Below the pieces are notes generated by a model that made no database searches, was not told the DNA's origin, and was given only the letters and a program-made list of their open reading frames with translations. Position numbers and translations under genes: made by a program. A DNA stretch of 64,000 bases, from positions 62,001-126,000 of the forward strand of contig NZ_JAJNKB010000007.1 of the NCBI RefSeq assembly GCF_021533195.1, given 5' to 3'. The stretch is from Portibacter marinus. GTDB taxonomy: Bacteria; Bacteroidota; Bacteroidia; Chitinophagales; Saprospiraceae. Below, piece by piece: positions 29,182-64,000 of the stretch; the first letter of the stretch is position 1; each line of letters starts with the position of its first letter.

Positions 29182-29189
29182 AAATAATT

Positions 29190-38305: not shown

Positions 38306-38454
38306 GACACAAGTTTTGAAACTCATTGAAAAGATAAGACTTATGTGTAAATTAAAATTGATATTCGCAAAGAATGGAGGCATAGCTTGTATTTGAAAAA
38401 GTAAATGGGTATTGAAAATTGTACCTTTCTAACATGGGAAAAGATCACGTTAAA

Positions 38455-43863: not shown

Positions 43864-44451
43864 TTAGAAAAAATAGAATCCAAGATTACTCTTTTTAACA
43901 TCGCTTTCGGCAAATTCATTGCGCATTTTGATCAGTGCCCTTGATAAATGATTGGCTGTTACTTGATATGAAATACTTAGAGTTTCAGCTATTTCCGGCA
44001 ACTTTAAATCCAGACTATACTTTAAATATATTATTTCTCTTTGTAAAGGGGATATTCGTTCAAGTAACCCTACTATGACTTCCGACGTATATTGCTTTTC
44101 TTCATTATGAATGACAATATCTTCATGACTAAAGGTTAAGTGAATGGCTTTTAATTCGTCTTTATTTGAAGAAATTTTGATTTTCATGACATTTTTTAAA
44201 TCGCTTAGCAATCTTCTTCTATAAGAACTTATGAGGTAGGCCTTTACATTATAGACCTTTTCAGAAAGATTTTCCCTGTTTTCATATAAGTACATAAAAA
44301 AATCCTGGATGCTATCCTTGACTAGATCTTCTCTTTGGGTAATCTTTTTCCCATAATCATACAAATAGGAGTAGTAATTGGTGAATAGCATGGAGAATGC
44401 AGCTTTATCACCAGTCTTAAATTTTTTCCATATTCTCTTATCGACAGTCAT
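43864..44451 (-). CDS. ECF-type RNA polymerase sigma factor (sigma-70 family)
   Basis: 195 residues from the ATG at 44451. Sigma region 2 is seen in F-S-M-L-F-T-N-Y-Y-S-Y-L-Y-D-Y and D-S-I-Q-D-F-F-M-Y-L-Y-E; region 4 in I-S-P-L-Q-R-E-I-I-Y-L-K-Y then the helix-turn-helix L-P-E-I-A-E-T-L-S-I-S-Y. It directs RNA polymerase to dedicated promoters, probably under control of the divergent FecR. In most Bacteroidota sigma and FecR genes are co-directional; here they are back to back, so both can be controlled from the 195-base region between them. Confidence 0.93.
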   Translation of the reverse strand: MTVDKRIWKKFKTGDKAAFSMLFTNYYSYLYDYGKKITQREDLVKDSIQDFFMYLYENRENLSEKVYNVKAYLISSYRRRLLSDLKNVMKIKISSNKDELKAIHLTFSHEDIVIHNEEKQYTSEVIVGLLERISPLQREIIYLKYSLDLKLPEIAETLSISYQVTANHLSRALIKMRNEFAESDVKKSNLGFYFF

Positions 44452-44646
44452 CAAGTCTTAAAATCAGTAAGTTTTAGATTATTAGTTTACACAAATTAAG
44501 TAAAATAATCTGCTAATTCATATTGCATAATATTGGTTAATAAAGTAAAAGTTGAAAAATAATTCCTTTTAATGGGTTAAAATTTGAAAAGATTGTTCTC
44601 TATAATAATAGAACACAAAAATTATTATATCTCAATCAAGCAAATA

Positions 44647-45666
44647 GTGCACGAAAACAAAAAGAATATAAACGATTTACTCAAATCAGACAGTTTCAAG
44701 CAATATGTTGCGGGAGACGATGACAATGATCCATTTTGGAAAGATTGGGTAAATAGTAATGCTGAAAATCAATTACTGGCAGAACAAGCAAAAAATATTA
44801 TTCTGGGTTTGCAGTTCTCATTTAAGTTAGAAGAACTGAGTGAGCAAAAAGTAAATGCTGAGCTGAAACGAACTTTAGATAAGATTGAAATTGGAGAGCA
44901 AGGTAAAATCTTAAACTTAGATTCTGTGTCTAAGAATAAGCGCGCTTTTACATGGATGAAGGCAGTTGCTGCTGCTCTGATTGTGCCAATAGTTGCGATT
45001 TTATCGTACTATTTTATGATTAACCCAACCATTTCACATCATTCAGATTTCGGAGAGCAGATGGTCATTATTTTGCCTGATGATACTAAAGTTAGTTTGA
45101 ATGGAAATTCTGAATTAACCTACAGGAAAAATAATCCAAGAAATGTATATCTCAAGGGTGAAGCTTTTTTCAATGTTGAGAAAAAACCGGAAACTGGTGA
45201 AAACTTTTTAGTAGTAACAGATGAGGTGGTAGTGGAAGTACTAGGAACAGCATTTAATGTAAATGAAAGAGAAGACCAAACAGAAGTTGCCCTTGAAGAA
45301 GGGGGTGTTAAGTTAAGAGTCACTGATCATGATTCACAAGATATTTTAATGGAACCAGGTGACGTCGTCACTTATTCTTCAAGAACGAAAGAAGTTTTTA
45401 CAAAGAAAGTAGCAGAAGTGCAACCGTTGGTGTCATGGAAAGATGGGGTACTTGAGTTTGAGGATGCTCCCTTGGAATTGGTAATGAAAAGAATAGAGGA
45501 AATTTATGGCTATACTACTTCTTATGAAAGTGAAGAGCTGAAAAGTAGAAAAGTTTTTTTCCCCCTACCTTCCAATGATCTCGAAAAAGCCATTCGAATT
45601 TTGGAGAAGACTTTAGGTATGGAAGCTGAATTATTGCGAGAAGATCGCAAAATCAGTTTAAGATAG
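44647..45666 (+). CDS. FecR-family anti-sigma factor
   Basis: 339 residues from a GTG at 44647 (M-H-E-N-K-K-N), which places the start about eight residues before the conserved D-L-L-K-S-D-S-F-K-Q-Y-V. A TTG at 44584 would add 21 residues unlike the family; there is no ATG before the transmembrane helix. The cytosolic anti-sigma domain is followed by a transmembrane helix (A-A-A-L-I-V-P-I-V-A-I-L), a periplasmic FecR domain (V-L-G-T-A-F-N-V) and a C-terminal DUF4974 domain (L-E-F-E-D-A-P-L-E-L-V). It should hold the ECF sigma until the STN domain of the downstream receptor signals substrate binding. Confidence 0.92.
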   Translation: MHENKKNINDLLKSDSFKQYVAGDDDNDPFWKDWVNSNAENQLLAEQAKNIILGLQFSFKLEELSEQKVNAELKRTLDKIEIGEQGKILNLDSVSKNKRAFTWMKAVAAALIVPIVAILSYYFMINPTISHHSDFGEQMVIILPDDTKVSLNGNSELTYRKNNPRNVYLKGEAFFNVEKKPETGENFLVVTDEVVVEVLGTAFNVNEREDQTEVALEEGGVKLRVTDHDSQDILMEPGDVVTYSSRTKEVFTKKVAEVQPLVSWKDGVLEFEDAPLELVMKRIEEIYGYTTSYESEELKSRKVFFPLPSNDLEKAIRILEKTLGMEAELLREDRKISLR

Positions 45667-45695
45667 TAGTTCAAATCTAAATTTTTTAATGTGCA

Positions 45696-45712
45696 CTAGA
45701 CCTTTGGTCTAG
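45696..45712 (+). promoter_or_regulatory. Perfect hairpin between FecR and receptor genes
   Basis: CTAGACC-TTT-GGTCTAG: a 7-bp perfect stem around three bases, 30 bases after the FecR stop. No T run follows, so it may be an operator or an RNA processing site rather than a terminator. Confidence 0.4.
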
Positions 45713-45782
45713 ACTGTGATTGTATTAAGAGATAATCACCTGGGACGTTTATTGATTTTACTGTGATCTTTAAAAATTGAAT

Positions 45783-48700
45783 ATGAAACTGACCTTACAT
45801 AAACTCGTGATTGTAATAGGCCTTAGCTGCCTAGTACTCAATTTCAATCAAGCGAAATCATTATTTCCAGACCAACAAGAAATATTGTTGACTGAAGCCT
45901 TGGAATTATTAAGTGAGAAGTACCAAATTTTCTTTGCTTATGATGCTGATTTGCTAAGAGGTTTGAAAGTCGATGATCAATTCCTAAATGGCCAGTCTTT
46001 AGAAGAAACAGTCAATAATCTTTTAGAAGAAACAGGGTTGCTCTATGATAAAATAGACGATAAATACTGTGTTATCTATAAAGATGACCGTAAGGGGAAG
46101 AGGGATAAAAAGAAGTTGGAAAGAAAAATAAGAGAAATTGAAGCCATAAAGTCAAAGGGAAATATTAGCATCCAAAAGAGCAAGGTACGTGGAACTTCTA
46201 AAATGCCAGTTGAAGGGGTTTTGAAAGGAATAAGAGAAATTGAGACTAGAACGGAAAGGAGGAGAAGAAAAGAAAATACGAATATCAAAGGTATCATCAC
46301 CGATGAATCTTCAGGAGAAACATTAATTGGTGCTAATGTAGCCTTAATGGGATCAAGCCTTGGAGCTGTTACTGATTTAAATGGTGAATACATTATATAC
46401 AATGTTCCGACAGGTACATATAATCTACAGTATAGTTATTTAGGGTACAAGACCGTTGTCAAAGAAAATGTTGAGATCAGTGGAAGCGAGCCAATCGTAA
46501 TTGATGTTGCTCTTGCGCCTGAAAGTATTATGGGAGAAGAAGTGGTAATCACAGCTCAAGTCAAAGGTCAGCGGGCGGCAATAAATCAACAAATATCTTC
46601 TAATTCTATAACTAATATTGTCTCTTCCGATAAAATCCAGGATGTTCCAGATGTCAATGCTGCAGAATCAATAGGTCGTCTACCCGGGGTTTCTCTCCAA
46701 AGATCAGGTGGTGAGGGAAATAAAGTAGTTGTTCGTGGATTATCACCCCAATTTACTATCGTAGAGATTGATGGTGTAAGAATGGCAGGCGTAGATGGAG
46801 ATAGAAGTGTAGGACTCAGCGTGATTTCATCTGATATGCTGGATGGAATAGAATTGACTAAAAGTTTAACTCCTGATAAAGATTCGGACGCTATAGGAGG
46901 AGTGGTAAATCTTAGGTTGAGGGGTGCAGAAGAAGGATTACACTACCGTGTGATGGCTTTAGGTGGATATAATAGTCTTGAGAATAGTTTTCGAAATTAC
47001 AGATTAGGTGGGAGTATTGGTAATCGATTTTTTAACAACAAGGTAGGAGTTCTCTTTACCATAGGTCAAGAGCAGGTTATCAGATCAGCAGATCGATTCA
47101 ATGCTACCTATGAAAAGAATATTGGCGAGAACGAAGAACTGTATACCACCAGTGCCACCATCACTGAACAGAAAAATGTCAGACAGAGAAGTAATGGAAG
47201 TTTGATGCTAGACTTTAAGAATGATTTCATGTCTATTAAATTCAACAATTTCATTAGTCAGATGATCAACGAAAATGAATTCAGATACAATAGATTCAGA
47301 TTTAACAGCAATGACTTTAGGTTCGACATAGCAGATAACAGGCCCATTGAGCGAATAAGATCCCATTCTTTAAGATCCGAATTCGACATTCTGAGCTCAG
47401 TTCTGTCTTTGGACCTTTCATACAGCAACACTACTTTGAATGACAAACGTGATCAATATAATTTCATAGATGATACCGTACTTGGAGGAAGTAGTATTTC
47501 AGAAAACAAGAAATTGTTTGCACAACCCTCGTCCCTCATCGACGAATTTTTTGACATCAGCTCAAGTGAAAAGTCGCTTTTATTGGATAATGTCAGATCC
47601 ACATCTATTAGAGATGATATTACCCAAACTGCTAACTTAAGTTGGAAGTTACCATTCACTTTTGGAGACAACATATCCGGTAATATAAAAATCGGAGGTA
47701 AATATGTTCAGAAAGAAAGAAGTAATGACACAGAAAGTCTACAGACATATTACTGGGGAGGTATTGGAATAGGAAGAGTAAATACTTATGTCAATCCAAA
47801 TTATCCTGATTTCCTCACGAGAGAAGATGTAGGAATTACAAGTGCTGAAGGACTTGTTGGATTTAATTTTGACGATCCAGATTATGACTATGGAGAAATA
47901 CTTAATGGCAGATACCAATTAGGTTGGTCTGCAGATTTAGAAAAATTAAAGAGTGTTCACGATAAACTTTATGAACAGTACGGTAAGAGTTTGCAATGGA
48001 CACAAGGCGTTCAATCTAATCAGAATGACTTCCAAAACCTAGAGATTATGAAGGCCGCATTTATAATGGCTGAAATCAACTTTGGGAAAAAAGTAATGAT
48101 TTTACCTGGTGTGCGCGTAGAGGAAATGAACACCACTTATACCGGCAGTTATTTATTGGAAGATAATTTTGATCCAGATGGATTAAAGTGGGTTAAAGAA
48201 GTTACAGCTGAAAGGCAGAATTTAAATTGGTTTCCGAGTATTAATATGCGCGTTGAATTAAATGACTGGAGCGACCTTAGAGCAGCAGCTTACAGAAGTT
48301 CCTCCAGACCAGATTACAACTTGCTTTCTCCAAGTATGATCGCAAATTTTGATCTGACAAGACTTACTTCTTACAATCCTTTCCTCAAACCTTCATTGGC
48401 CAATAACTTTGATTTAGGAGTTTCTTTTTACGCTAATAAGTTGGGTCTATTCACTGTCAATCTTTTTTACAAAGAAATCAGCGGATTAATTTATAGACTT
48501 CCGAGGTATCAACCAGAGTATTTTGATATTTTGGAAGGTGCTCCTGCATCACTCATCGAATCACTTCAGGCACCACGAGTTCTATACGATGATGATCTGT
48601 TTAAAAAATCCGGTACCTTAAATAATAATGTACCCATTAATAATCCCAATAATGCCTATTTCAGAGGTTTTGAGGTGAGCTGGCAGACAAATTTCTGGTA

Positions 48701-49190
48701 TTTGCCTGGATTTTGGAAAGGTTTAGTTCTTGACTTGAATTATTCTTTGATAGCCTCTACAACTCGTTTTCCTTACTTGGAAATAGTGACGACCTGGGAC
48801 GACTCTGGCATTATCCCAATTCCGGTAGAAACTCCTGTATACAACACAAGAGAGTCACGTATGTTAGATCAACCGGTCTCACTATTCAATGCTCGTATTG
48901 GATATGACTATAAGGGCTTGTCCACCAGATTATCCTTCAGATACCAAGGGGAAACAATTAACGGGATCGATCCGGTTCACAGCCTTTTAGATAGACGGAC
49001 AGGTGATGTTTTCAGAATTGACTTGACTGCCAGGCAGCAGATTACAAAGGCCTTATCATTTTCGTTGGATTTAGCAAATCTAAATCAATTTGTAGATGAT
49101 TCCTTTATAATAGCACAGGGTAGGGTTCTTCCGAGTTCCAGCGAATATTATGGATTAACGGCGCAGGCTGGGTTTAGATATGAATTTTAA
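45783..49190 (+). CDS. STN-domain TonB-dependent receptor (no SusD partner)
   Basis: 1135 residues from ATG 45783 (TTG 45777 adds two). After the signal peptide, residues about 35-95 are an STN domain (L-T-E-A-L-E-L-L-S-E-K, then F-A-Y-D-A-D-L-L), used by FecA-type receptors to signal to FecR. A very basic linker (about 100-165) precedes a CarboxypepD_reg-like domain, then the plug (V-P-D-V-N-A-A-E-S-I-G-R-L-P-G-V-S, V-V-R-G-L-S-P-Q-F) and the barrel, ending Y-E-F. The plug resembles TonB-Xanth-Caul receptors, which work without SusD, more than SusC. It likely imports oligosaccharides and reports their presence through FecR to the sigma factor. Confidence 0.9.
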   Translation: MKLTLHKLVIVIGLSCLVLNFNQAKSLFPDQQEILLTEALELLSEKYQIFFAYDADLLRGLKVDDQFLNGQSLEETVNNLLEETGLLYDKIDDKYCVIYKDDRKGKRDKKKLERKIREIEAIKSKGNISIQKSKVRGTSKMPVEGVLKGIREIETRTERRRRKENTNIKGIITDESSGETLIGANVALMGSSLGAVTDLNGEYIIYNVPTGTYNLQYSYLGYKTVVKENVEISGSEPIVIDVALAPESIMGEEVVITAQVKGQRAAINQQISSNSITNIVSSDKIQDVPDVNAAESIGRLPGVSLQRSGGEGNKVVVRGLSPQFTIVEIDGVRMAGVDGDRSVGLSVISSDMLDGIELTKSLTPDKDSDAIGGVVNLRLRGAEEGLHYRVMALGGYNSLENSFRNYRLGGSIGNRFFNNKVGVLFTIGQEQVIRSADRFNATYEKNIGENEELYTTSATITEQKNVRQRSNGSLMLDFKNDFMSIKFNNFISQMINENEFRYNRFRFNSNDFRFDIADNRPIERIRSHSLRSEFDILSSVLSLDLSYSNTTLNDKRDQYNFIDDTVLGGSSISENKKLFAQPSSLIDEFFDISSSEKSLLLDNVRSTSIRDDITQTANLSWKLPFTFGDNISGNIKIGGKYVQKERSNDTESLQTYYWGGIGIGRVNTYVNPNYPDFLTREDVGITSAEGLVGFNFDDPDYDYGEILNGRYQLGWSADLEKLKSVHDKLYEQYGKSLQWTQGVQSNQNDFQNLEIMKAAFIMAEINFGKKVMILPGVRVEEMNTTYTGSYLLEDNFDPDGLKWVKEVTAERQNLNWFPSINMRVELNDWSDLRAAAYRSSSRPDYNLLSPSMIANFDLTRLTSYNPFLKPSLANNFDLGVSFYANKLGLFTVNLFYKEISGLIYRLPRYQPEYFDILEGAPASLIESLQAPRVLYDDDLFKKSGTLNNNVPINNPNNAYFRGFEVSWQTNFWYLPGFWKGLVLDLNYSLIASTTRFPYLEIVTTWDDSGIIPIPVETPVYNTRESRMLDQPVSLFNARIGYDYKGLSTRLSFRYQGETINGIDPVHSLLDRRTGDVFRIDLTARQQITKALSFSLDLANLNQFVDDSFIIAQGRVLPSSSEYYGLTAQAGFRYEF

Positions 49191-49230
49191 AAATCAGGTA
49201 AACAATTTTATATACTTTAAACAAAATCAA

Positions 49231-51078
49231 ATGAAGCATTTTTATACAAAGAAGCTATTATTAACATTAACTATGGCGGTGTTTGGCATCTCACTGGTTA
49301 AAGCTCAGGTTCCTCCTGAGCAAGAGGTCATCGAAATTGAAGGCGGTATTGAGAATATCGGACTTCTAGAAACAACAATCAATAGTGATACAATTGCTGG
49401 CGGAAACAGAGCAAATCCCACTAGAATTTATAGACTGAAAAAAGATCAGATCTATTATATGGAATCGCGAATTCAATTTGGTGGAGACGATGTAACAGAT
49501 ACTACTTCGACTTTGATCATCGAAGGAGAAACAGGTGGGAAAAAACCGATCATCTTAATGATTCCGAAAGATGGAGGTGACGCCTTTACCAATTTGGTAC
49601 ATGGATCACTTACTTTGAGGAATCTATATTGGCCTGTAAAAACAGTTACAGGTAAAGGAAGAGCTTTATTTCAATTATTCCGTTCTAATCAAACACTTCG
49701 TGTTGAGGACTGTGTAACAGAATATGCAGAAGGTGGAGATTTGTTTGTAATGTCAAGTGTAGAAGGAGCAGCAAGTTTTTTCTTGATCAACAGTTATTTT
49801 AGGGATAATTCACAATTTGCTAACTCCTTTAATTTTGCAGTGGTCGCGAGAGGTACAAATGGAGAAGCAATAGATACAATGTGGATTCAAAATTGTACAG
49901 TTTCCAATTCAGGTTTAACCTTCTTTGGAAAACTAAATCCCATCAAATTTGCCTTTATGGACCACAATACCATAGTTAATACTCCTAAGTATCCATTGTT
50001 CTTTGATCAATATGAAGAAGCTTATTTTACAAATAATATGTGGATAAATTGTAATTGGGAAGGTGAGTGTCAATCTACATGGGAAACTCAGTTGCCAGAT
50101 GGTGTAAAAAGTGGAATTGTAAATCTGGATACGATAGATCCTATGTTGTGGGAATTAGGTCATGGCTATGTACCGGATATGAATAATGTAAAATTTATGG
50201 TTTCTAATAACCTGCATTATACCAGCCCATTCCTGGATAAATATTACGCAGGAGAATTCAATGATGTTGGGCCATACCCACTTTCAAATCGTGACTGGTC
50301 AGCAGCTATTAGTTCAGAGGATCTTCCCATACCTGTAGAAAACATCCCGATTCAATTCCTCAATGAAAAAACACTGACCTTAATCAATGACTATGAAGGT
50401 ATTGTAGAAAACAGAAATTTTAACAACGAGCTTGACCCTTTAATGAAAACAAATGGAATAGCTGACCAGGAAGTTGGTGATGAGTTTGCACATTTTGCAA
50501 GGAATAATTACGGTGTTGCCAATGAGGGAGAAACTTATAACATCAACATGATTGCATTTGGAGATCAAGACCCCCAAACAGTGCCTGGTATAGAGACCGA
50601 GAATGGTGATGGATTTACGCATGCCAGTGATCTGATAGAAGATTTTTCATATGAAGCGGAGGTTAGATCCAGCATTGACGGTCTCCCTTTAGGTTCACTT
50701 TTATGGTGGCCAGACCTTCAGGATGATTACAATGAATCAGAAGCTCTTGCAAATGTAAAAGAGCATTATGAGCAAGTGTTATTGGGAACATCTGTAGAGG
50801 AGGTCAATGCTTTCTCTGCACTTTATGAATTGAGTAACAACCCAAATCCATTCTCTGAGTTCACAAGTATCCAATTTTCTCTAGATAAAAGCAGTTTGGT
50901 GAAGATTAATATCTACAATGCACAAGGTCAGTTCATCACTAATCTTGTTAATCAAAAAATGAATTCAGGAACGCAGCAGGTTAGATGGAATGTCAATGAC
51001 AGTAACGCGGGTGTCTATTTTTATACCATTTCAATTGATGAGAGAACCATTTCAAAAAGGTTGATTGTACAGAAGTAA
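49231..51078 (+). CDS. T9SS-sorted putative beta-helix surface protein
   Basis: 615 residues from the ATG at 49231 (an ATG at 49180 overlaps the receptor and adds 17 residues). Signal peptide (ending V-K-A-Q-V); then repeated short strands (L-T-L-R-N-L-Y-W, L-R-V-E-D-C-V, M-W-I-Q-N-C-T-V) as in right-handed parallel beta-helices of polysaccharide lyases and other glycan-binding proteins; and a T9SS type A sorting domain (N-P-N-P-F, then Q-Q-V-R-W-N-V and R-L-I-V-Q-K). It should be surface-attached or released. No lyase catalytic residues are identifiable. It occupies the position directly after the receptor where susD usually is, and a strong terminator-like hairpin follows. Confidence 0.8.
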   Translation: MKHFYTKKLLLTLTMAVFGISLVKAQVPPEQEVIEIEGGIENIGLLETTINSDTIAGGNRANPTRIYRLKKDQIYYMESRIQFGGDDVTDTTSTLIIEGETGGKKPIILMIPKDGGDAFTNLVHGSLTLRNLYWPVKTVTGKGRALFQLFRSNQTLRVEDCVTEYAEGGDLFVMSSVEGAASFFLINSYFRDNSQFANSFNFAVVARGTNGEAIDTMWIQNCTVSNSGLTFFGKLNPIKFAFMDHNTIVNTPKYPLFFDQYEEAYFTNNMWINCNWEGECQSTWETQLPDGVKSGIVNLDTIDPMLWELGHGYVPDMNNVKFMVSNNLHYTSPFLDKYYAGEFNDVGPYPLSNRDWSAAISSEDLPIPVENIPIQFLNEKTLTLINDYEGIVENRNFNNELDPLMKTNGIADQEVGDEFAHFARNNYGVANEGETYNINMIAFGDQDPQTVPGIETENGDGFTHASDLIEDFSYEAEVRSSIDGLPLGSLLWWPDLQDDYNESEALANVKEHYEQVLLGTSVEEVNAFSALYELSNNPNPFSEFTSIQFSLDKSSLVKINIYNAQGQFITNLVNQKMNSGTQQVRWNVNDSNAGVYFYTISIDERTISKRLIVQK

Positions 51079-51093
51079 AGTAATGTAATTTCA

Positions 51094-51128
51094 GGAGTTC
51101 ACCCCGACGATATCGGCGGGGTGACTCC
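51094..51128 (+). terminator. Strong GC-rich hairpin after the beta-helix gene
   Basis: Arms GGAGTTCACCCCG and CGGGGTGACTCC pair with one bulged T around a loop that contains the palindrome CGATATCG. A T7 run comes only later (about 51152), so it is a terminator or a stable 3' end rather than a textbook intrinsic terminator. Confidence 0.55.
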
Positions 51129-51190
51129 AAATTTCTCATAAAGCAAATGAGTTTTTTTAGGGTCCTAGAGTAATGATCTACCGAGATTCC

Positions 51191-51289: not shown

Positions 51290-51305
51290 GTTTATAAACA
51301 TCGAA

Positions 51306-52694: not shown

Positions 52695-52705
52695 AATTAA
52701 AATTT

Positions 52706-53992: not shown

Positions 53993-53996
53993 TAAT

Positions 53997-56900
53997 ATGT
54001 CATATAGATTAACATATTTCCTGGTAGTTCTGGGTTGCCATTGTAGTATAGTACTTTATGGTCAATATGACAAGAGTAGTCATATATTTGAAATGCTAAC
54101 TTCTGAAGAAAGTGGGATTACATTTAGGAATGACCTGACAATGAGTGAGCAAAAGAATTTTTTCACCTATGGGTACTTTTATCTAGGAGGCGGAGTAGCG
54201 ATCGGTGATTTTAATAACGATGGGTTACAGGATGTGTACTTCACAGGGAATATGGTTGAAAATCAGCTATACTTAAACTTAGGTAACTTACAATTCAAAA
54301 ATGTGACGGGCGAGGTAGGAGTCGGTGGTGATGACCGATGGGTTACGGGATGTTCAGTTGTGGACATCAATAATGATGGATGGCGTGACATTTATGTAAG
54401 TGTGGCGGGTAAGTGGTCTTCCAGGAAAAATATGCTTTTTGAAAATCAAGGGACGAATGAAATGGGTATCCCCGTATTCAAAGAGAAAGCCGAGAAATAT
54501 GGATTGGCCGATAACAGCAATACGATGCAAACTGTTTTCTTTGATTATGACGGTGATGGAGATCTAGATGCATATATGGCCAATTATCCTGAGACCAGAT
54601 TTAACCTAAGACCAATGGATTACAAAAGACTTATTGAAAGAGGTTCTATCTCATCTTCAGATCACCTGTATCAGAATAATGGAGATGGAAGCTTCACAGA
54701 TGTAACTTTAGAGGCAGGTGTTTTGAATTTTGGCCTCACACTAGGAATCGTGGCCAGTGATTTAAATAATGATGGATGGCTAGACCTCTACCTTTCAAAT
54801 GACTTTCATTCTCCCGATTATCTATATATCAATAATGGTGACGGTACTTTTACTGATCAGCTTGGTAGTTCATTGATGCAGACAGCACTCTTTGGTATGG
54901 GCGTAGATGCAGCTGATTACAATAATGATGGTCTGATAGATTTGATTCAATTGGACATGGCTCCGCCTGATAACTTCAGATCTAAAGCCAATATGGCAAG
55001 TATGAACCCTTCACTATTTGCCGAAATGGTAGATAATGGATTGCATCATCAATATATGTATAATATGGTTCAGACTGCTAAGGGGATACGAAATGATGGG
55101 ATACCATTTTATGCAGAAACAGCGAAACACTTGGGTCTAGATAAGACAGACTGGAGTTGGTCGGCTTTGTTGGCAGATTTTGATCTTGACGGATATAAAG
55201 ACCTATTTGTGACCAATGGAATTCGAAAAGACATTAATAATAAGGACTACTTTGGGTGGCTGGGACAAATGGAAAAAGAGAATAAAGGTAAAGGTCACTT
55301 ATACAATGATATGAGTCTGACAGAATTACTTGAAAAAATGCCCCATCAAAAATTGGACAATCCAATCTTTCAGAATATTGGAGGAAAAAAGTTTCAACAG
55401 GTTAATGACAAGTGGGGACTACACTTTACCGGCTATTCCAATGGTGCGGCTTATTCAGATTTAGATAATGACGGGGATTTGGAATTGATTATAAACAATA
55501 TTGATAGTACGGCAACCATCTTTAAAAACCTATCCAAAGAAAGATCCTCTCAAAACTTTATAAATGTCAAGTTAGAGGGTAAGAGTGGCAATAGAGATGG
55601 TGTCGGTGCTAAAGTGAAAATTAAAAACCCCACAACATTTCAGTATTTGGAGCAATCTCCAGTGCGCGGATACCAGTCTTCAGTGGATCCCACGCTTATT
55701 TTTGGACTGGGAGAAAATGATGTGGTTAAAAAATTAATCGTTGAATGGCCTAGCGGATTAATCTCAACCTTAAATGATGTTCCCGTCAATCAAAGAATTA
55801 TTGTCGAAGAAAAAAATGCAGTTGAAAGTATAGATGAAAATCCAAGTGAAAGACGCTTCTTTCAACAACAAAATTCATCAAGAATTGAACATAGGGAAAA
55901 TGAATATAATGACTTCGATCGAGAAGTTTTACTTCCTCATAAGATGTCAACTCACGGACCTGCACTGGCCATTGCAGATTTGAATATGGACGGATCAGAA
56001 GATCTGTACCTCGGCGCTTCGTTTGGATCGAATGGTAAACTTATTTTAAGTAAGGATAAATGTGATACCATTATTGAACTGGAAAGTGAGCAATATGAAG
56101 ATATAGATGCAATATTTCTAGACCTAGACAATGATGGAGATCAGGATCTTTATATCGTTTCTGGAGGAAATGAGCGACCTGCACATGATAGTGCCTACAG
56201 AGACAGATTATATATAAATGATGGAAGTGGCGTTTTTACTTTAGTTCATGTTAATTGGCCATTTCCTTCGAATAGCGGAGCAGTAGTAAGGCCTTTAGAT
56301 TACGATCAAGACGGATACATTGATCTCTTTATAGGGAATAGGCAAATTCCAGGATTATATCCTAATCCAGCAACAAGCTATCTTCTTCGAAATACTAGTT
56401 CAAAAAATGAAATAGGCTTTGAAGTCATCAAAGAATTTGAAGAATTGGGGATGGTGACAGATGCCTTATGGGATGATTACGATCAGGATGGAGATAAGGA
56501 TTTATTGATCGTGGGCGAGTGGATGCCATTAACGATCTTTGAAAACAACGGAAATGATCTGAGTCAGGTTGTTGATTTAGCATTTTTAGATCAAACGGTC
56601 GGTTGGTGGAATACGATTGAAAAGGCTGATTTTGATGGTGATGGTGATCATGATTATATTCTTGGGAATCTAGGGCTCAATTACAAATATAAAGCATCCC
56701 CTGAAGCGACATTTGACATTTATTCAGACGATTTTGATCAAAACGGTCATCAGGATATAGTTTTGGGCTATTACCAAAACGGTATTCAGTTCCCCGTACG
56801 AGGTAAGCAGTGCAGTACAGAACAAATGCCGGTATTGAAAGATAGAATTGAAAGTTACAATCTCTTTGCAAGTTCTAATATTCAAGAGATCTATCAAGAG

Positions 56901-57308
56901 GAACAATTAAGTAAAAGCTTACACTTGAAAGCTAATGAATTTGCTCATTTGTATCTGGAAAATCTTGGATCAGGAGAGCTTAAATCACTGCAATTACCTG
57001 GATGCTCGCAAATAGGGACTGTCAATGATATTTTGATCCTTGATGTGAATCAGGATCAAAATTTAGATGTCATTATGGTGGGGAATCAATTTAATTCTGA
57101 GGTTGAAACGCCCAGAAGCGATGCTAATTTCGGGACTGTATTAATCGGCGATGGTCATGGAAGTTTTGAGTGTTCTAGTTACGAAAAAACAGGAATCTAT
57201 AACCCCTTTGAAGCTAAAAAAATCAAATTAAGAAAGACAGGTAAAAGCTCCCAGATAATCATTGCAAATAATAATGGTCCATTGGTCTACTACAAATTAA
57301 ATGAATAA
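53997..57308 (+). CDS. FG-GAP/VCBS repeat protein with ASPIC/UnbV domain (CRTAC1-like)
   Basis: 1103 residues with a signal peptide. About 14 calcium-loop FG-GAP repeats of the form D-x-N-x-D-G-x-x-D occur, such as D-F-N-N-D-G-L-Q-D and D-L-D-N-D-G-D-Q-D. They form two propeller groups around an ASPIC/UnbV domain (about 520-600; G-D-G-V-G-A-K-V analogue N-R-D-G-V-G-A-K-V, then V-R-G-Y-Q-S-S). Proteins of this type are frequent in marine PULs and are thought to bind glycan or calcium at the surface; no enzyme activity is established. Gene starts 4 bases after the GH71/99-like stop and overlaps the next ORF by 8 bases. Confidence 0.9.
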   Translation: MSYRLTYFLVVLGCHCSIVLYGQYDKSSHIFEMLTSEESGITFRNDLTMSEQKNFFTYGYFYLGGGVAIGDFNNDGLQDVYFTGNMVENQLYLNLGNLQFKNVTGEVGVGGDDRWVTGCSVVDINNDGWRDIYVSVAGKWSSRKNMLFENQGTNEMGIPVFKEKAEKYGLADNSNTMQTVFFDYDGDGDLDAYMANYPETRFNLRPMDYKRLIERGSISSSDHLYQNNGDGSFTDVTLEAGVLNFGLTLGIVASDLNNDGWLDLYLSNDFHSPDYLYINNGDGTFTDQLGSSLMQTALFGMGVDAADYNNDGLIDLIQLDMAPPDNFRSKANMASMNPSLFAEMVDNGLHHQYMYNMVQTAKGIRNDGIPFYAETAKHLGLDKTDWSWSALLADFDLDGYKDLFVTNGIRKDINNKDYFGWLGQMEKENKGKGHLYNDMSLTELLEKMPHQKLDNPIFQNIGGKKFQQVNDKWGLHFTGYSNGAAYSDLDNDGDLELIINNIDSTATIFKNLSKERSSQNFINVKLEGKSGNRDGVGAKVKIKNPTTFQYLEQSPVRGYQSSVDPTLIFGLGENDVVKKLIVEWPSGLISTLNDVPVNQRIIVEEKNAVESIDENPSERRFFQQQNSSRIEHRENEYNDFDREVLLPHKMSTHGPALAIADLNMDGSEDLYLGASFGSNGKLILSKDKCDTIIELESEQYEDIDAIFLDLDNDGDQDLYIVSGGNERPAHDSAYRDRLYINDGSGVFTLVHVNWPFPSNSGAVVRPLDYDQDGYIDLFIGNRQIPGLYPNPATSYLLRNTSSKNEIGFEVIKEFEELGMVTDALWDDYDQDGDKDLLIVGEWMPLTIFENNGNDLSQVVDLAFLDQTVGWWNTIEKADFDGDGDHDYILGNLGLNYKYKASPEATFDIYSDDFDQNGHQDIVLGYYQNGIQFPVRGKQCSTEQMPVLKDRIESYNLFASSNIQEIYQEEQLSKSLHLKANEFAHLYLENLGSGELKSLQLPGCSQIGTVNDILILDVNQDQNLDVIMVGNQFNSEVETPRSDANFGTVLIGDGHGSFECSSYEKTGIYNPFEAKKIKLRKTGKSSQIIIANNNGPLVYYKLNE

Positions 57309-60300
57309 AAAATTGAATATGAAAACGAGAAATTACTCAGCGATTTTGATTGGTATTTTGTTTTTACAATGCCGCATAGTACTAGCCCAGATTCATAGTC
57401 CATCCTCAGCTCATCCAACATACACCGGGTTGGTCATGACAGGATATCAAGGATGGTTCGGTACTCCTGGCGATGGAGGAACCAATGGCTTTAGACATTA
57501 TAGAGATGGTGGAGGTTTTCAACCAGGAAATGCCTCTATCGAATATTGGCCTGATATGCGCGAAGCAGAACCAGATGAGAAATACCCTACCGATTTTGAG
57601 TTCGCCGATGGCACTACAGCTACTGTATTTAGTTCGGTCCATCCCAAAACAGTAAACAGACACTTTCAGTGGATGAAGGAATATGGCATAGATGGTGCAT
57701 TTATGCAACGTTTCCGATCAGACTTTGGTATCAAACCGACCCTTAATAAAGTGTTACAAAATGGTTTAGATGCAGCTAGAAATAATGACAGAGCGATTGC
57801 GCTAATGTATGACTTGTCGGGAACAAGTATAAAATCTAACGGGACTGTTAATCCAGATAAGCGTGCGGAAGAGGTGGCCAGAATAACAGATGATTTTAAG
57901 GCACTGGTTGATGAAATGAACTTGACCACGGGAGGAGAAGATCAACCTTATTTATACCACAATGGAAAACCACTTGTAGTATTGTGGGGGTTAGGTTTTA
58001 ATTCCAGGCATGATGCTGATGGCTATGATGTTCAATATTTTGTTGATATGGTTGACTTTTTTCAGAATGATCCAGTATACGGTGGTTGTGCTATAATGAT
58101 TGGTGTACCAACAAACTGGAGACAAGGAGGAGGAGATTGTATAAGTGGTTTTGAACATGATAAAATGATAGAGCTCCTTAAATCCATTGACATTATCCAA
58201 CCTTGGCATACCAGTAGATATGGCAGAGATCAGATGGCCACAGATTTCAAAAGTAAAGTGCGAAGTGACGTCCTGTGGTGCAATGAAAATGACATAGATT
58301 ACACCCCTACTATTTCTCCAGGCATCAGAGAAAAAATTCTTCATGGTAACAACTATGAAAGACCTCGGGAAGGAGGTTATTATTTCTGGGATATGGCAAG
58401 AGCAGCTATAGATGTAGGAGTAGAGATGTTGTATTTGGGAATGTTTGATGAGGTAGATGAAGGCACTCAATATCACAAAATCAATAACAATCCACCTTTT
58501 TTCAGTAACACCGTAAGTTTTGCTGATTATGGTGATGATCCGGAAGATCATTATTTATGGCTTGCAGGTGAAGCAAAAAGAGCTTTGACTGGAGAGTTTG
58601 TAATGGGTACAACCATTCGAGAGCGCGCGAAATCTGAGGCTTTCGAAACAATGGTCGAGTTTGTAGATCACGGAGATGTATATAGTATTTTTATATCTGA
58701 AGGTGCAGAAGGAAGAGCTATCTATTTTGCGGATCCTTACAAAGTACCGGATGGTGCTCCAACTGTAGGTACTCAGAGGGATTCCTCCTTATTCCATAAT
58801 GAATTATTATTAGATACGATTACTTTTTCTGAAAGTGATAGAGGAAAGTTTATAAGAATGGTAGAGGTGGATGAATTGACGGGTGAGGTTCTAGCTTATA
58901 AGGCTTTGGTTGGTGTGCATGGATTTTCACAAGTGCCTTATACGACAGGATTTGAAACAGGACAAGTAGATGAGAGATTTTGGACTACCAACTCTGATAG
59001 TGGTAATGGGAGAATTTATGTCACAAATGAATTAGATGCAGGCAATGGGTTTGCTCTGTTCATGGACTCAGATACGGAAGGAAGCAATTCGATAAATGTT
59101 GCGGACTTGCATGTAGATTTGAATGGCATACAGCGTGATTTGATATTGAGTATGACGGTTACTATACCCTCTGAAATTGGTGCAAATGATGGTATATATT
59201 TGTCTCAAGATGGGGGGAATACATTTACGCTTGCTGAAGAATTTTCGATTACAGGGGAAGGCTCAAGTACTATTTCAATCAACTTGGCGGATAGATCTGA
59301 AGAATTAGAATTGGGATTTACTACTAGTTATGTTATCAGACTTCAGCATACTGCTAGTGGTCCGTTTACTGAAAATAAGGGAATTGCAATAGATGATATC
59401 AGTATTGATTTTTCTTCAATGCCAAGTGGCTTTGCCAAGTTTATAGGAAGTGATACAGAAACTCAAGGTAAGTGGAATGGCGTTTATGGAGTACAAGGCT
59501 ATTACATCGCTGGTATAGGTGAAAATCTGCCGGAAAATGTACATCTTGATCTTCCACAAATGCAGCAAACAATTATTTGGGAGCATAACAGCTCGGATGA
59601 GAGAGGTTTGTATTACAATATGGACTCTACCATTTTAGCAGCTGATTTTGTAGATTCGACGGAAGAGCCCTGGTCAATAAATTTAAATCTTGGTGAACAA
59701 GAATACAATGTTTCTCTATATTTTCTCGATGGTGATGATCAAGGTCGTATTATAACAGTAAGTCTGGTCGATAAGGCCACTGGGGAAACCTATAATGTGC
59801 AAACTGTTTCAGATTTTTCGGGTGGAAAATGGTTGACCTGGAAAATGAATGGTAAGGTGAGAATAGAGCTGAATACGATTGAAGGCCCTAATGCTGTATT
59901 TTCCGGTCTGTTTTTAAGCCCTTCGTCACCTTCAGAAATTGTAGTTGAGCAGTTCCTGACATTTGATGGAACAGATGATTTTGTAGACTGTGGTCGAGGA
60001 GAGGAATTACTGGTAAGTGGAAATGCTATCACACTAGAAGCCTGGTTCAACATAAATGAATCTAGGGCGGAGACTTTTCAAAGCACAATATTGGCTATGG
60101 ATCATAGTGAAGCTGGAAATGATATAGGATTTTTTCTTCGCGCCAATGGTGATGGACAGATCAATTGGGGTTTCGGAGATGGCATGTGGCATGAAGTGTC
60201 AAGTGGTTCTGAAGAAAAGTTATTCGAAGAAGGAACCTGGAACCATGTAGCGGGTACGTATGACGGGGAGACACAAAAGATCTATTTGAATGGCAATCTT

Positions 60301-63300
60301 ATTTTTAGCAGCGACACCTTTTCGGCGTTAGTTCTGCCTACTTTAGATGAAAACCTTTACATAGGATCCTCGCCTGCTTTTCCTGACAGAGTAGTTAATG
60401 GTGCAGTTGCTGAAGTTCGAATCTGGAAAGTTGCCAGAACTGATAGTGAAATTAAAGAATTTTCAACTAAGAGATTGACTGGAGATGAAGAAGGTATCGC
60501 TGCATATTGGCCAATTAATGAAGGCAGCGGTCAAATTATCAATGATCTGGCTGGAGGTGGAAATACCGGTATTTTAGGAGGAACTGTGGAAGAAACTGAT
60601 AAAGATCCAATTTGGGAAGAAGGAGATGTTGTAGTTTTTGAAAATGCTATTGAAGGTTTTAATCCTAGCTTTGAGGATGATTTGGAGTTTTGGAGATTTT
60701 TTGAAGTTCCTAACGGATTGGGCAGTACTGTCGAAATCATTCAAGGAGATGTTGTGGATGGTGCAAAAGCTGCGAAAGTAACCTTTGTGGCACCAGAGGA
60801 AGGACTCGCGGATCGAGCATTTGACAATTGGGATTCGAATATGACTTTGAAGCCTGAAACCATTTACCAAGGTTCATTTTGGGCGAAAAAACAAGGCGAA
60901 AGTAATGGGGCAATTAATTTTACGTACGGATTTTTTGATGAGAACAGAAATGTTCTAGACGAATCTGGCATCACATTTGACTTGACTGAAAATTACGAAA
61001 AATATGAATTTACATTTTCGACGCCTCCTGGTACTGCCAAAGGATGGATCTCCTTTAGATGGCGAGATAAGGAAACCAATGAATTTGCAGACGGCACCAT
61101 TTTTATTGATCATATTGAAATTCTGACAGAAGTTAAGGATACTAGTGATGCTGATGTCAAAGATGCTATCTCAGGCTTCAACCCGAGTTTTGAGCAGGAC
61201 CTTGAGTTCTGGAGATTTTATGAGGTGCCAGATGCCTTAGGCAGTATGGTTGAAATCATTACCGACGATGTAATTGATGGAGAGAAGGCAGCTAAGATTA
61301 CATTTGTGGAACCTGTTGAAGGGCTTGCAGATAGAGCCTTTGATAATTGGGACTCTAACATGTTACTAGAGCCGGAAAAGGAGTATGAGGGATCATTTTG
61401 GGCTAAGGAAATTGGAGAAAGCGATGGTTCATTAATCTTTTCTTATGGATTTTTTGACGATGACCGCAATGTTATTAGTGAAGGAAATGAGATTTTTGAT
61501 TTGTCTTCAACTTACGATAAATATGAATTTTCATATGAAACACCACCTGGTACTGCAAAGGGATGGATTTCATTCAGATGGAAGAATAAGGATACAGGAG
61601 CATTTTCCGCGGGTACGATTATAGTGGATCATATTCAATTGCTTACGGAAGTGGAGGATACGGTTGTGGTAACAGATACTGAAGATGCTATAGCAGGCTT
61701 CAACCCGAGTTTTGAGCAGGACCTTGAGTTCTGGAGATTTTATGAGGTGCCGGATGTTTTAGGCAGTATGGTTGAAATCATTACCGACGATGTTATTGAT
61801 GGTGAAAAAGCAGCCAAAGTGACTTTTGTGGAGCCTGTAGAGGGGTTGGCTGATCGAGCTTTTGATAATTGGGATTCTAATATGGAGTTAAAGCCTGAAA
61901 AAGAGTACAATGGTTCATTTTGGGCCAAGGAAGTAGGAGAGAGTGGAGGATCTTTGACTTTTGCTTATGGGTTTTTCGACGAAGATAGGAATGTAATTAG
62001 TGAAGGTTCAGAAATTTATGATCTGACCAATAATTATCAGGAATATAAATTTACTTACAATACTCCGGTGGGTACTGCAAAGGGATGGATTTCTTTCAGA
62101 TGGAAGAATAAGGATACAGGAGCATTTTCCGCGGGTACGATTATAGTGGATCATATTCAGTTGCTTACGGAAGTTGAGGATACGGTTGTGGTGACAGATA
62201 CTGAAGATGCTATAGCAGGCTTCAACCCGAGTTTTGAGCAGGACCTCGAGTTCTGGAGATTTTATGAGGTGCCAGATGCTTTAGGCAGTATGGTGGAAAT
62301 CATTACCGACGATGTTATTGATGGCGAAAAAGCAGCCAAAGTAACTTTTATGGAGCCAGCAGAGGGTTTGGCTGATCGGGCATTTGATAACTGGGATTCC
62401 AATATGGAGTTAAAGCCTGAAAAAGAGTACAATGGCTCATTTTGGGCCAAGGAAGTAGGAGAAAGTGGAGGATCTTTGACTTTTGCCTATGGGTTTTTCG
62501 ACGAAGATAGGAATGTAATTAGTGAAGGTTCAGAGGTCTATGATCTGACCAATAACTATCAGGAATATAAATTTACTTACAATACTCCGGTGGGTACTGC
62601 AAAGGGATGGATTTCATTCAGATGGAAGAATAAGGATACAGGAGCATTTTCCGCGGGTACTATTATAGTGGATCATATTCAATTGCTTACGGAAGTTGAG
62701 GATACGGTTGTGGTGACAGATACTGAAGATGCTATAGCAGGCTTCAACCCGAGTTTTGAGCAGGACCTCGAGTTCTGGAGATTTTATGAGGTGCCAGATG
62801 CTTTAGGCAGTATGGTGGAAATCATTACCGACGATGTAATTGATGGTGAAAAAGCAGCCAAAGTGACTTTTGTGGAGCCTGTAGAAGGGTTGGCTGATCG
62901 AGCTTTTGATAATTGGGATTCTAATATGGAGTTAAAGCCTGAAAAAGAGTACAATGGTTCATTTTGGGCCAAGGAAGTAGGAGAGAGTGGAGGATCTTTG
63001 ACTTTTGCTTATGGGTTTTTCGACGAAGATAGGAATGTAATTAGTGAAGGTTCAGAAATCTATGATCTGACCAATAACTATCAGGAATATAAATTTACTT
63101 ACAATACTCCGGTGGGTACTGCAAAGGGATGGATTTCATTCAGATGGAAGAATAAGGATACAGGAGCATTTTCCGCGGGTACGATTATAGTGGATCATAT
63201 TCAGTTGATTACAGAATTGGATTCTACGGTTAACGTGGATGATATTGAAATAGTACAAAATGAATTATTGCCTCAGTTTGAAATTATTCCTAATCCTATT

Positions 63301-63531
63301 TATTCAGAAGCAAACCTCAATATTGATTTGCCTGAAAGTGGATGGGTAGATATTAGATTGTTTGATTTATCTGGAAATCAAGTTGATAAAATCTTTTCTC
63401 GAAGTATGAATGCAGGCGAACATCAGGTTAGGGTTAGGTTTGAACACTTACCTCAAGGAATATATTTTATTGGACTGCAATCCAATCAAAATATGATGAC
63501 GAAAAAAATTATATTGCTTGGAAATGAGTAA
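57301..63531 (+). CDS. Giant GH71/99-like protein with LamG, five CBM-like repeats and T9SS tail
   Basis: 2076 residues. Order: signal peptide; GH71/99-like domain (about 40-430) with M-F-D-E-V-D-E-G (E384, E387), the GH99-type paired glutamates; a beta-sandwich resembling MAM or jelly-roll domains (about 550-705); another beta domain (about 708-880); a LamG/concanavalin-A-like domain (about 885-1100; F-D-G-T-D-D-F-V-D-C-G); five repeats of 173-174 residues (about 1112-1975); and a T9SS C-terminal sorting domain (about 1990-2076, ending K-K-I-I-L-L-G-N-E). It should be exported by T9SS as a surface or released multimodular endo-glycanase. A second ATG at 57319 gives a shorter, equally good signal peptide; the ATG at 57301 overlaps the previous gene. 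Confidence 0.9.
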   Translation: MNKKLNMKTRNYSAILIGILFLQCRIVLAQIHSPSSAHPTYTGLVMTGYQGWFGTPGDGGTNGFRHYRDGGGFQPGNASIEYWPDMREAEPDEKYPTDFEFADGTTATVFSSVHPKTVNRHFQWMKEYGIDGAFMQRFRSDFGIKPTLNKVLQNGLDAARNNDRAIALMYDLSGTSIKSNGTVNPDKRAEEVARITDDFKALVDEMNLTTGGEDQPYLYHNGKPLVVLWGLGFNSRHDADGYDVQYFVDMVDFFQNDPVYGGCAIMIGVPTNWRQGGGDCISGFEHDKMIELLKSIDIIQPWHTSRYGRDQMATDFKSKVRSDVLWCNENDIDYTPTISPGIREKILHGNNYERPREGGYYFWDMARAAIDVGVEMLYLGMFDEVDEGTQYHKINNNPPFFSNTVSFADYGDDPEDHYLWLAGEAKRALTGEFVMGTTIRERAKSEAFETMVEFVDHGDVYSIFISEGAEGRAIYFADPYKVPDGAPTVGTQRDSSLFHNELLLDTITFSESDRGKFIRMVEVDELTGEVLAYKALVGVHGFSQVPYTTGFETGQVDERFWTTNSDSGNGRIYVTNELDAGNGFALFMDSDTEGSNSINVADLHVDLNGIQRDLILSMTVTIPSEIGANDGIYLSQDGGNTFTLAEEFSITGEGSSTISINLADRSEELELGFTTSYVIRLQHTASGPFTENKGIAIDDISIDFSSMPSGFAKFIGSDTETQGKWNGVYGVQGYYIAGIGENLPENVHLDLPQMQQTIIWEHNSSDERGLYYNMDSTILAADFVDSTEEPWSINLNLGEQEYNVSLYFLDGDDQGRIITVSLVDKATGETYNVQTVSDFSGGKWLTWKMNGKVRIELNTIEGPNAVFSGLFLSPSSPSEIVVEQFLTFDGTDDFVDCGRGEELLVSGNAITLEAWFNINESRAETFQSTILAMDHSEAGNDIGFFLRANGDGQINWGFGDGMWHEVSSGSEEKLFEEGTWNHVAGTYDGETQKIYLNGNLIFSSDTFSALVLPTLDENLYIGSSPAFPDRVVNGAVAEVRIWKVARTDSEIKEFSTKRLTGDEEGIAAYWPINEGSGQIINDLAGGGNTGILGGTVEETDKDPIWEEGDVVVFENAIEGFNPSFEDDLEFWRFFEVPNGLGSTVEIIQGDVVDGAKAAKVTFVAPEEGLADRAFDNWDSNMTLKPETIYQGSFWAKKQGESNGAINFTYGFFDENRNVLDESGITFDLTENYEKYEFTFSTPPGTAKGWISFRWRDKETNEFADGTIFIDHIEILTEVKDTSDADVKDAISGFNPSFEQDLEFWRFYEVPDALGSMVEIITDDVIDGEKAAKITFVEPVEGLADRAFDNWDSNMLLEPEKEYEGSFWAKEIGESDGSLIFSYGFFDDDRNVISEGNEIFDLSSTYDKYEFSYETPPGTAKGWISFRWKNKDTGAFSAGTIIVDHIQLLTEVEDTVVVTDTEDAIAGFNPSFEQDLEFWRFYEVPDVLGSMVEIITDDVIDGEKAAKVTFVEPVEGLADRAFDNWDSNMELKPEKEYNGSFWAKEVGESGGSLTFAYGFFDEDRNVISEGSEIYDLTNNYQEYKFTYNTPVGTAKGWISFRWKNKDTGAFSAGTIIVDHIQLLTEVEDTVVVTDTEDAIAGFNPSFEQDLEFWRFYEVPDALGSMVEIITDDVIDGEKAAKVTFMEPAEGLADRAFDNWDSNMELKPEKEYNGSFWAKEVGESGGSLTFAYGFFDEDRNVISEGSEVYDLTNNYQEYKFTYNTPVGTAKGWISFRWKNKDTGAFSAGTIIVDHIQLLTEVEDTVVVTDTEDAIAGFNPSFEQDLEFWRFYEVPDALGSMVEIITDDVIDGEKAAKVTFVEPVEGLADRAFDNWDSNMELKPEKEYNGSFWAKEVGESGGSLTFAYGFFDEDRNVISEGSEIYDLTNNYQEYKFTYNTPVGTAKGWISFRWKNKDTGAFSAGTIIVDHIQLITELDSTVNVDDIEIVQNELLPQFEIIPNPIYSEANLNIDLPESGWVDIRLFDLSGNQVDKIFSRSMNAGEHQVRVRFEHLPQGIYFIGLQSNQNMMTKKIILLGNE
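60655..63216 (+). repeat. Five tandem 522-bp coding repeats (CBM-like domains)
   Basis: Copies begin at 60655, 61174, 61696, 62218 and 62740: one spacing of 519 bases, then exactly 522. Each encodes a module starting G-F-N-P-S-F and including A-D-R-A-F-D-N-W-D-S-N, G-S-F-W-A-K and G-T-A-K-G-W-I-S-F-R-W, in the style of CBM4/9-like jelly rolls. Copies 3-5 are nearly identical in DNA, copy 2 less so and copy 1 most diverged. Confidence 0.95.
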
Positions 63532-64000
63532 AAACTATGATGAGGTAGTCGTTCCTAAAAAGCTTTTACTGCCTTTTATTTTGATTACATCGCTATTTGC
63601 ATTATGGGGATTTGCCAACGCTGTTACAGATCCCATGGTGCAGGCGTTTAAGAAGGTTCTGGAATTAACGAACTCTCAGGCTGCCTGGGTACAAATGGCT
63701 TTCTATGGTGGTTATTTTTGCATGGCGCTGCCAGCTGCTTTATTTGTGCGAAAATACAGTTATAAGACTGGAGTCTTGATTGGTTTGGCACTCTATGCTG
63801 CAGGAGCCTTACTTTTTTATCCGGCGGCAATCACAGAGCAATTCTGGTTTTTCTGTCTGGGCCTATATGTATTGACTTTTGGACTTGCTTTCCTGGAGAC
63901 CACTGCTAATCCATACATTCTGGCAATGGGAAGTCGTGAAACAGCCACACAGCGACTAAATCTTGCACAGGCCTTTAATCCTGTGGGGTTGCTGTTGGGG
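63524..64000 (+). CDS. FucP-type sugar:H+ symporter (MFS), 3' end off the window
   Basis: 159 codons are visible; the gene runs off the right edge. The first helix F-I-L-I-T-S-L-F-A-L-W-G-F-A-N, then D-P-M-V-Q-A-F-K-K, G-G-Y-F-C-M-A-L-P-A-A and L-E-T-T-A-N-P-Y are signature motifs of the FHS (fucose-galactose-glucose:H+ symporter) family and closest in feel to FucP. Its ATG overlaps the stop of the giant glycanase by 8 bases, suggesting translational coupling and that it takes up a sugar released by this locus. Relatives also carry other sugars, so fucose is only the likeliest guess. Confidence 0.85.
   Translation, partial: MSKNYDEVVVPKKLLLPFILITSLFALWGFANAVTDPMVQAFKKVLELTNSQAAWVQMAFYGGYFCMALPAALFVRKYSYKTGVLIGLALYAAGALLFYPAAITEQFWFFCLGLYVLTFGLAFLETTANPYILAMGSRETATQRLNLAQAFNPVGLLLG

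Follow-up and report, generated by a model that had tools for sequence, protein, structure and literature searches.

The DNA considered here is a stretch of 64,000 nucleotides from Portibacter marinus contig NZ_JAJNKB010000007.1 (the window, whose position numbers are used throughout), and its right-hand part holds a gene for a TonB-dependent receptor followed by a gene for a protein with a beta-helix core, referred to below as the partner. The region studied, 43864-64822, runs past the window edge to the end of a symporter gene. This region is probably a polysaccharide utilization locus (PUL) whose import pair in the outer membrane, the receptor with its beta-helix partner, works independently of SusD, and it is placed here under the control of an STN domain, FecR and an extracytoplasmic function (ECF) sigma factor. 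The pair recurs in other genomes, and from its sequence context it is read as a module for SusD-independent glycan import. The receptor, which is of the TIGR01782 type, would be the importer and would take up oligosaccharides with TonB energy. The partner would be exported by Sec and then by the type IX secretion system (T9SS) and held on the cell surface, where its beta-helix most likely binds glycan for the receptor, the task performed by SusD in SusCD loci. By analogy, we infer that it caps the receptor barrel in a lid-like complex. The T9SS enzymes, the sulfatase and the glycoside hydrolase (GH) 99-like proteins may trim the glycan, and a released sugar may be taken up by the FucP-type symporter. 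The STN domain of the loaded receptor would signal to FecR, by which the ECF sigma factor may be freed and the cluster switched on.

Receptor and partner are closely linked and have diverged together. Of 198 related genomes, 21 yielded a total of 34 receptors in a receptor search (E at most 1e-60), and up to 20 kb was taken around each receptor. One weaker receptor of the present genome (L119) was added, together with 80 further loci from a separate receptor scan of named genomes, the best 80 of 561 confirmed stretches. The titles of these named genomes, mostly metagenome-assembled, include Bacteroidota, Ignavibacteria, Melioribacteraceae, KSB1, Calditrichota, Rhodothermia, Neomarinimicrobiota, Gemmatimonadetes and Latescibacteria. 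Removal of 6 receptors more than 95% identical to others reduced 114 receptors to 108 of at least 850 aa; 7 of them were unreadable, either lying at a contig end or having a truncated next gene that gave no match, and 101 were informative. The L118 receptor (585 aa, cut) was dropped by the 850-aa filter, and L120-L122, fetched through the partner, stand outside this receptor-first count. A match to the partner profile lay beside the receptor in 95 of the 101: next downstream in 89, two genes down past a small opposite-strand open reading frame (ORF) in 1, and just upstream in 5. Among the Saprospiraceae 30 of 32 informative receptors were paired, a count that is partly circular because the partner profile was built from the downstream genes of that set; among the named genomes, mostly independent of the training loci of the profile, the count was 65 of 69. 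When the search was reversed and loci were fetched by the partner profile, a receptor adjoined the partner in 28 of 30 (L203 and L204, two of the 30, are loci from which the profile was built); the exceptions were L218, with no receptor, and L224, with an opposite-strand ORF in the receptor's place.

A tree of 130 receptors and three SusC-type outgroups placed all 117 paired receptors (117/117) in one clade, which also holds 4 unpaired and 7 unreadable receptors; the unpaired L117 and L119 fell outside it. The distances among receptors and among partners were correlated (Mantel r 0.88 for 109 of the 117 pairs, short or weak partners having been dropped), a value reached in 0 of 999 permutations and one to which the shared ancestry of the organisms adds. 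Even so, where a genome has two pairs (G118, G100 and G043), any one receptor and the partner belonging to it were nearest to the same pair group in the other genomes. As a same-genome control, eight SusD loci were inspected: SusC lay upstream of 7 of 7 readable SusD genes, and no partner match occurred in any of the eight. Likewise, there was no partner match in 11 other receptor-like loci of this genome, several of which are cut short, with the downstream gene of L051 out of view. The simpler explanation that any TonB receptor in an organism with a T9SS precedes such a protein is countered by these 8 and 11 loci. Two variants of the arrangement were also noticed. In L146, L201 and L252 the gene after the partner encodes a distinct protein, about 225 aa long, with a match to the receptor profile, and the receptor comes next. 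At L119:10523-16397, a distant 968-aa receptor encoded in this genome comes after a 984-aa T9SS protein, which may be another receptor-partner type.

A preliminary description of this DNA had presented the arrangement as a feature of one locus; the pair in fact recurs as a module across several phyla, mostly with no STN/FecR circuit. That description had offered two stand-ins for SusD, the beta-helix protein and a giant protein with carbohydrate-binding modules (CBMs). The former is strongly favoured by the 95 of 101 receptors that have it as a neighbour, and the latter was dropped, as it does not adjoin the receptor in relatives among the contexts listed; weak matches of the giant protein on the partners of relatives are taken as the shared T9SS tail. 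The description of the locus as SusD-less held. The PF07980 profile found 13 SusD genes at E 0.001 in the whole 5.19-Mb genome and one on this contig, at 29997-30896, within a separate SusCD locus (26113-30899). No PF07980 match was found in 43864-64822, and the search of the 268,681-base contig gave no susD past the right edge of the window, where its possible presence had been allowed for. The placing of the receptor nearer to the TonB-Xanth-Caul type than to SusC was likewise borne out, with 358 bits for TIGR01782 (cut-off 310) against 66 bits for the SusC/RagA model TIGR04056 (cut-off 368). In the receptor alignment, 25 of 25 members match TIGR01782 (E 1e-5), and 15 of 25 also match SusC, with a best E of 8.8e-24. 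A plain SusCD PUL with an overlooked susD is therefore rejected, since the SusD of the contig lies elsewhere and the receptor is not SusC. Compared with a canonical SusCD PUL, the region has neither an adjacent SusD-family gene nor a SusC/RagA-family receptor; it does have clustered glycan enzymes and a regulator (sulfatase, GH99-like proteins below the cut-off, CBM4_9, FucP, ECF sigma/FecR). It looks as if the locus, which departs from the SusCD type in both its import genes, nevertheless works like one.

The partner has the marks of a T9SS cargo. In the window it carries a Por sorting tail (PF18962, 44 bits) and a signal peptide, judged by eye, and the T9SS-tail profile was matched by 75 of 77 complete downstream partners. 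Of 32 family members, Pfam at E 0.01 recognised the T9SS tail in 30, Beta_helix in 15, DUF4957 in 7 and DUF5123 in 2. Structure prediction places the core in the class of right-handed beta-helices (AlphaFold model with pLDDT 83 and pTM 0.88, from 74 sequences). With the core model, Foldseek returned helices of the polysaccharide lyase family 6 (PL6) and pectate-lyase type, the best being 7dmk (E 4.5e-4), the sole match at E 0.001; the full-length model gave mainly matches to the Ig-like T9SS tail and none at E 0.001. The start of the partner is probably the ATG at 49231, after which a normal-looking signal peptide follows by eye, and the overlap between the receptor and partner ORFs vanishes with this start. 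Several variants of the partner were seen. In L089 (4413-7703) the protein has 1096 aa and apparently two tandem beta-helix domains, the partners of L105 and L107 seem duplicated too, up to the contig end, and L218 encodes a partner-like protein of 490 aa with no T9SS-tail match and no neighbouring receptor in view.

The regulatory part of the locus is coupled to one form of the receptor. An STN-like extension was found in seven receptors (that of the window and those of L088, L100, L124, L154, L160 and L161), and all seven adjoin fecR and/or sigma genes. The fecR gene is directly upstream in 6 of the 7; in L161 a sigma gene is upstream, with an unlabelled 346-aa gene in between. Among the 108 receptors, no labelled fecR lay within three genes upstream of any besides the STN-extended ones, the label meaning similarity to the window's own fecR, and a sigma-like gene lay upstream in L116 and L186. 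The check for the extension was made on receptors that reach 1040 aa or have a gene labelled fecR or sigma no more than three genes upstream; L202 had no STN-like extension, and L200 was masked there. In the Pfam STN scan, which covered the long receptors and not the shorter ones, 6 of the 7 long receptors, the window's included, matched within a limit of E 1, the strongest at 3.4e-9. Among solved structures, the profile of this region best matches, weakly at E 0.03, the ferric-pseudobactin receptor's signalling domain (2a02). The architecture thus supports the proposed role of the receptor as a sensor acting through STN, FecR and the ECF sigma factor, as the preliminary description had it. 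One import pair serves two regulator classes, as SusCD does, because the second pair of this genome (L106) stands under a hybrid two-component regulator.

A number of observations weigh against the proposed import pair. Six of the 101 receptors had no adjacent partner match: L117, L119, L149, L162 and L171 showed none in reach, and L197 adjoins another T9SS gene. The node that holds the paired clade has a support of only 0.585, and both linkage and co-divergence could stem from shared inheritance of the two genes without physical contact between their products. The Foldseek TM-score on the query was modest, 0.41 at best among the 50 matches listed. The solved structures nearest to the partner are lyases, and in the 74 aligned cores two Asp positions (86% and 84%) and one His position (76%) are conserved; given these lyase-like relatives and residues, an enzymatic role of the partner is conceivable. 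Among the matches listed, SusD also occurs in 22 of the 50 genomes that carry the partner, and the partner is therefore not a simple replacement of SusD. With regard to the circuit, Pfam STN on the window receptor gave E 0.012-0.014, which is under the cut-off, and the STN-domain receptor of the preliminary description accordingly stands as a TonB receptor with an STN-like region. In L241 (9914-17306), a locus fetched by the partner, the pair has fecR and sigma genes on its downstream side and a receptor of only 994 aa.

The beta-helix partner could be a surface polysaccharide lyase or another enzyme, in which case the receptor would act alone and the linkage would be that of any operon enzyme. 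The closest structures, PL6 alginate and chondroitin lyases, would agree with this, as would the several Asp and one His conserved in the family and the frequency of T9SS tails in these loci, where they were found on 10 of 87 downstream genes. PL6 chemistry, however, requires a conserved catalytic Lys and Arg, and in the 74 cores no Lys or Glu position reached 47% and the best Arg reached 59%; Asn, Gly, Tyr and Leu make up the ten positions conserved in more than 90%. The significant match of the partner family profile (E 3e-12) is to residues 445-693 of the alginate lyase BcAlyPL6, its C-terminal helix, and not to the N-terminal helix, which we take to be the catalytic one. In addition, a single partner family stands beside receptors whose enzyme sets differ widely. 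An enzymatic partner is therefore judged rather unlikely, and the low conservation of Lys, Arg and Glu makes us favour a binding protein over a PL6-type lyase. The pair might also serve a nutrient other than a glycan, such as a metal chelate, a peptide or a vitamin, with the carbohydrate-active enzymes (CAZymes) nearby by convenience. Circuits of FecR, sigma factor and STN domain are classically iron systems, FecA-type signalling would fit iron, and TIGR01782 is a broad receptor family. Yet the pair is linked to glycan enzymes, with CAZymes, sulfatases and sugar symporters beside it in many loci. The 87 downstream genes surveyed, from 37 of 68 loci taken at random within a size limit and with the window excluded, contained GH2 (10), GH88 (5), GH18 (5), SSF Na/solute symporters (4), MFS (4), sulfatase (3), and GH94, GH106, GH26 and GH130 (2 each), counting the 25 most frequent of 84 families. 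In this genome, the second pair (G000:C11, L106) is accompanied by GH88, GH2/DUF4861 and two alginate-lyase-family genes, and the Rhodothermus pair discussed below lies in a xylan locus. Import of a non-glycan nutrient is thus regarded as quite improbable.

Another explanation is that the locus is an incomplete or decayed SusCD PUL which borrows its SusD from elsewhere, for instance from 26113-30899, 15 kb off in the same window. It could be brought into line with the practice of treating loci that lack SusD as 'incomplete subtypes' among PULs (PMC6298971). This explanation is held to be very improbable. The receptor is not SusC, and the surroundings of the pair elsewhere gave no SusD match: 1 of 651 neighbouring genes (at least 300 aa, duplicates kept) matched the SusD profile, and this match is the window's own SusD, which is in both the gene set and the training set of the profile. 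The profile is not blind outside the genus, because the SusD of L233 was found with it. In a search of 395 genomes of the phylum, the partner profile (E at most 1e-15) was matched in 50, and PF07980 (E at most 1e-8) in at least 203 of an equal number drawn likewise; the best few candidates per genome were scored, and SusD was represented by PF07980 only. Comparison of the lists by hand gave 28 of the 50 partner-bearing genomes without PF07980 among the matches listed. The pair and SusCD do coexist in some lineages, since SusCD is reported for Melioribacter roseus (PMC3534657) and for a Balneola genome (PMC7029141), and this counters the idea that there is no SusD outside Bacteroidia.

The proposed import pair can be compared with several known systems. 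SusD is a lipoprotein. Like the SusC/SusD PULs, the locus combines a TonB importer and an adjacent gene for a surface protein with CAZymes, sulfatases, a symporter and a regulator of the PUL type; it differs in that the receptor is of the TIGR01782 and not the TIGR04056 type, and the partner is a beta-helix with a T9SS tail and not a SusD fold. A cap other than SusD has a precedent in BtuB-BtuG of Bacteroides, described as a TonB transporter with a dedicated non-SusD surface cap (PMC10404256). BtuG, however, is a lipoprotein beta-propeller for vitamin B12, whereas the partner is a T9SS-sorted beta-helix, probably for glycans. With FecIRA-type signalling the locus shares the STN-like receptor domain and the adjacent FecR and ECF sigma genes; unlike there, these genes accompany glycan enzymes instead of iron genes, and sigma and fecR are transcribed divergently. 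The PL6 lyases and the DUF4957/DUF5123 beta-helix proteins have the same right-handed beta-helix, and the partner is sequence kin of the BcAlyPL6 C-terminal domain. In contrast to them, it is without the conserved Lys/Arg pair, carries a T9SS tail and is fixed beside a receptor.

The pair seems to be already in print without having been recognised. The order in L233 is GH10 with CBM4, receptor, partner, peptidyl-prolyl isomerase, T9SS protein, GH10, a 187-aa ORF, a 347-aa ORF, SusC and SusD, the two ORFs fitting sigma and FecR by position alone, and it agrees with Rmar_1069-1078 as given in Table 1 of PMC6987092. The Rhodothermus marinus xylan locus (Rmar_1067-1081) therefore appears to hold the pair as Rmar_1070-1071. 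In that table the pair is listed as a receptor and a 'hypothetical protein', the latter (Rmar_1071) noted with a Por sorting domain, and it differs from the present one in standing beside an extra SusCD pair (PMC6987092). A description of the pair as a unit was not found in the open-access papers searched and may be in print elsewhere.

The detection of PULs relies on the susC-susD pair. If the receptor and its partner form an import module, a class of glycan-uptake loci has escaped notice in Saprospiria, Rhodothermia, Ignavibacteria, KSB1 and further lineages of the Fibrobacteres-Chlorobi-Bacteroidetes (FCB) group, and this class would extend to genomes without a PF07980 match. TonB transporters with a cap would then also be able to work with a partner delivered by the T9SS in place of a lipoprotein, and a profile of the receptor together with its beta-helix partner is a means of finding such loci. 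A wider proposal is put forward only tentatively, namely that this is a second design for active glycan import across the outer membrane of the FCB group, free of SusD, lipoprotein-free and with varied regulators (STN/FecR/ECF or hybrid two-component), in which the T9SS beta-helix would open and close as a lid over the TIGR01782-type transporter as SusD does over SusC.

The genes named in the preliminary description, from sigma to FucP, are present where it placed them (Table 1), and the tight spacing it noted from 51306 onward was confirmed, with gaps of 11, 4, -8 and -8 (or -14) bases; the gap between partner and sulfatase is 227 bases. Its two GH71/99-like enzymes show a distant likeness to GH99, and both score below the Pfam cut-off of 33, with 30.3 bits for the protein at 52706-53992 and 27.3 bits for the GH99 part of the giant protein. 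By phmmer, the former matches PDB entries titled 'Glycosyl hydrolase family 71' (4ad1 and others, E 5.7e-6), which are presumably Bacteroides GH99. As a whole, the earlier interpretation is partly supported.

Table 1. Genes and features of the region 43864-64822, in window coordinates
Feature	Position	Strand	Remarks
ECF sigma-70 factor gene	43864..44454	-	ATG at 44451; divergent from fecR
fecR anti-sigma regulator gene	44584..45666	+	FecR 62 bits, FecR_C 37 bits
TonB-dependent receptor, TIGR01782 type	45783..49190	+	N-terminal STN-like domain, CarboxypepD_reg, Plug
STN-like signalling domain	45933..46079	+	receptor residues 51-99; Pfam STN E 0.012
Partner protein	49231..51078 (ORF 49180-51078)	+	signal peptide, predicted right-handed beta-helix core (49279-50712), T9SS sorting tail (about 50842-51069)
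Sulfatase	51306..52694	+	PF00884 156 bits, with SGSH_C
GH99-like protein	52706..53992	+	GH99 30.3 bits, Pfam cut-off 33
FG-GAP/UnbV (CRTAC-like) protein	53997..57308	+	PF13517 199 bits, PF07593 69 bits
Giant 2076-aa protein	57301..63531	+	GH99-like N-part, LamG, CBM4_9 (4 stretches), T9SS tail (Pfam)
FucP-type symporter gene	63524 (or 63518)..64822	+	TIGR00885 504 bits, cut-off 280; L009:1519-2823

The sigma protein matches Pfam Sigma70_r2 and r4_2 and TIGR02937 above the cut-off and TIGR02985 below it. The fecR ORF opens at TTG, and the GTG at 44648 is a likely start. The NCBIfam name for the symporter is fucP. The sulfatase and FucP suggest a sulfated and fucose-bearing substrate, and the distant GH99 likeness would suggest an alpha-mannoside; the 'sulfated alpha-glycan' named previously is a guess, one possibility among these. 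The whole operon of sulfatase, GH99, UnbV and giant protein was not kept in any relative among the contexts listed. Single members recur near the pair, as sulfatase-like genes in L089, L111, L236 and L244 and as UnbV-like genes in L146 and L201. About 15 kb upstream of the receptor, the window holds a canonical SusC-SusD pair together with an unassigned 841-aa protein and a sulfatase (26113-35193); another sulfatase (38434-39849) and, at 40000-42777, an OMP_b-brl_3 protein are also present. A perfect inverted repeat, CTAGACC-TTT-GGTCTAG, stands between fecR and the receptor at 45696-45712 and may be an operator or a weak hairpin.

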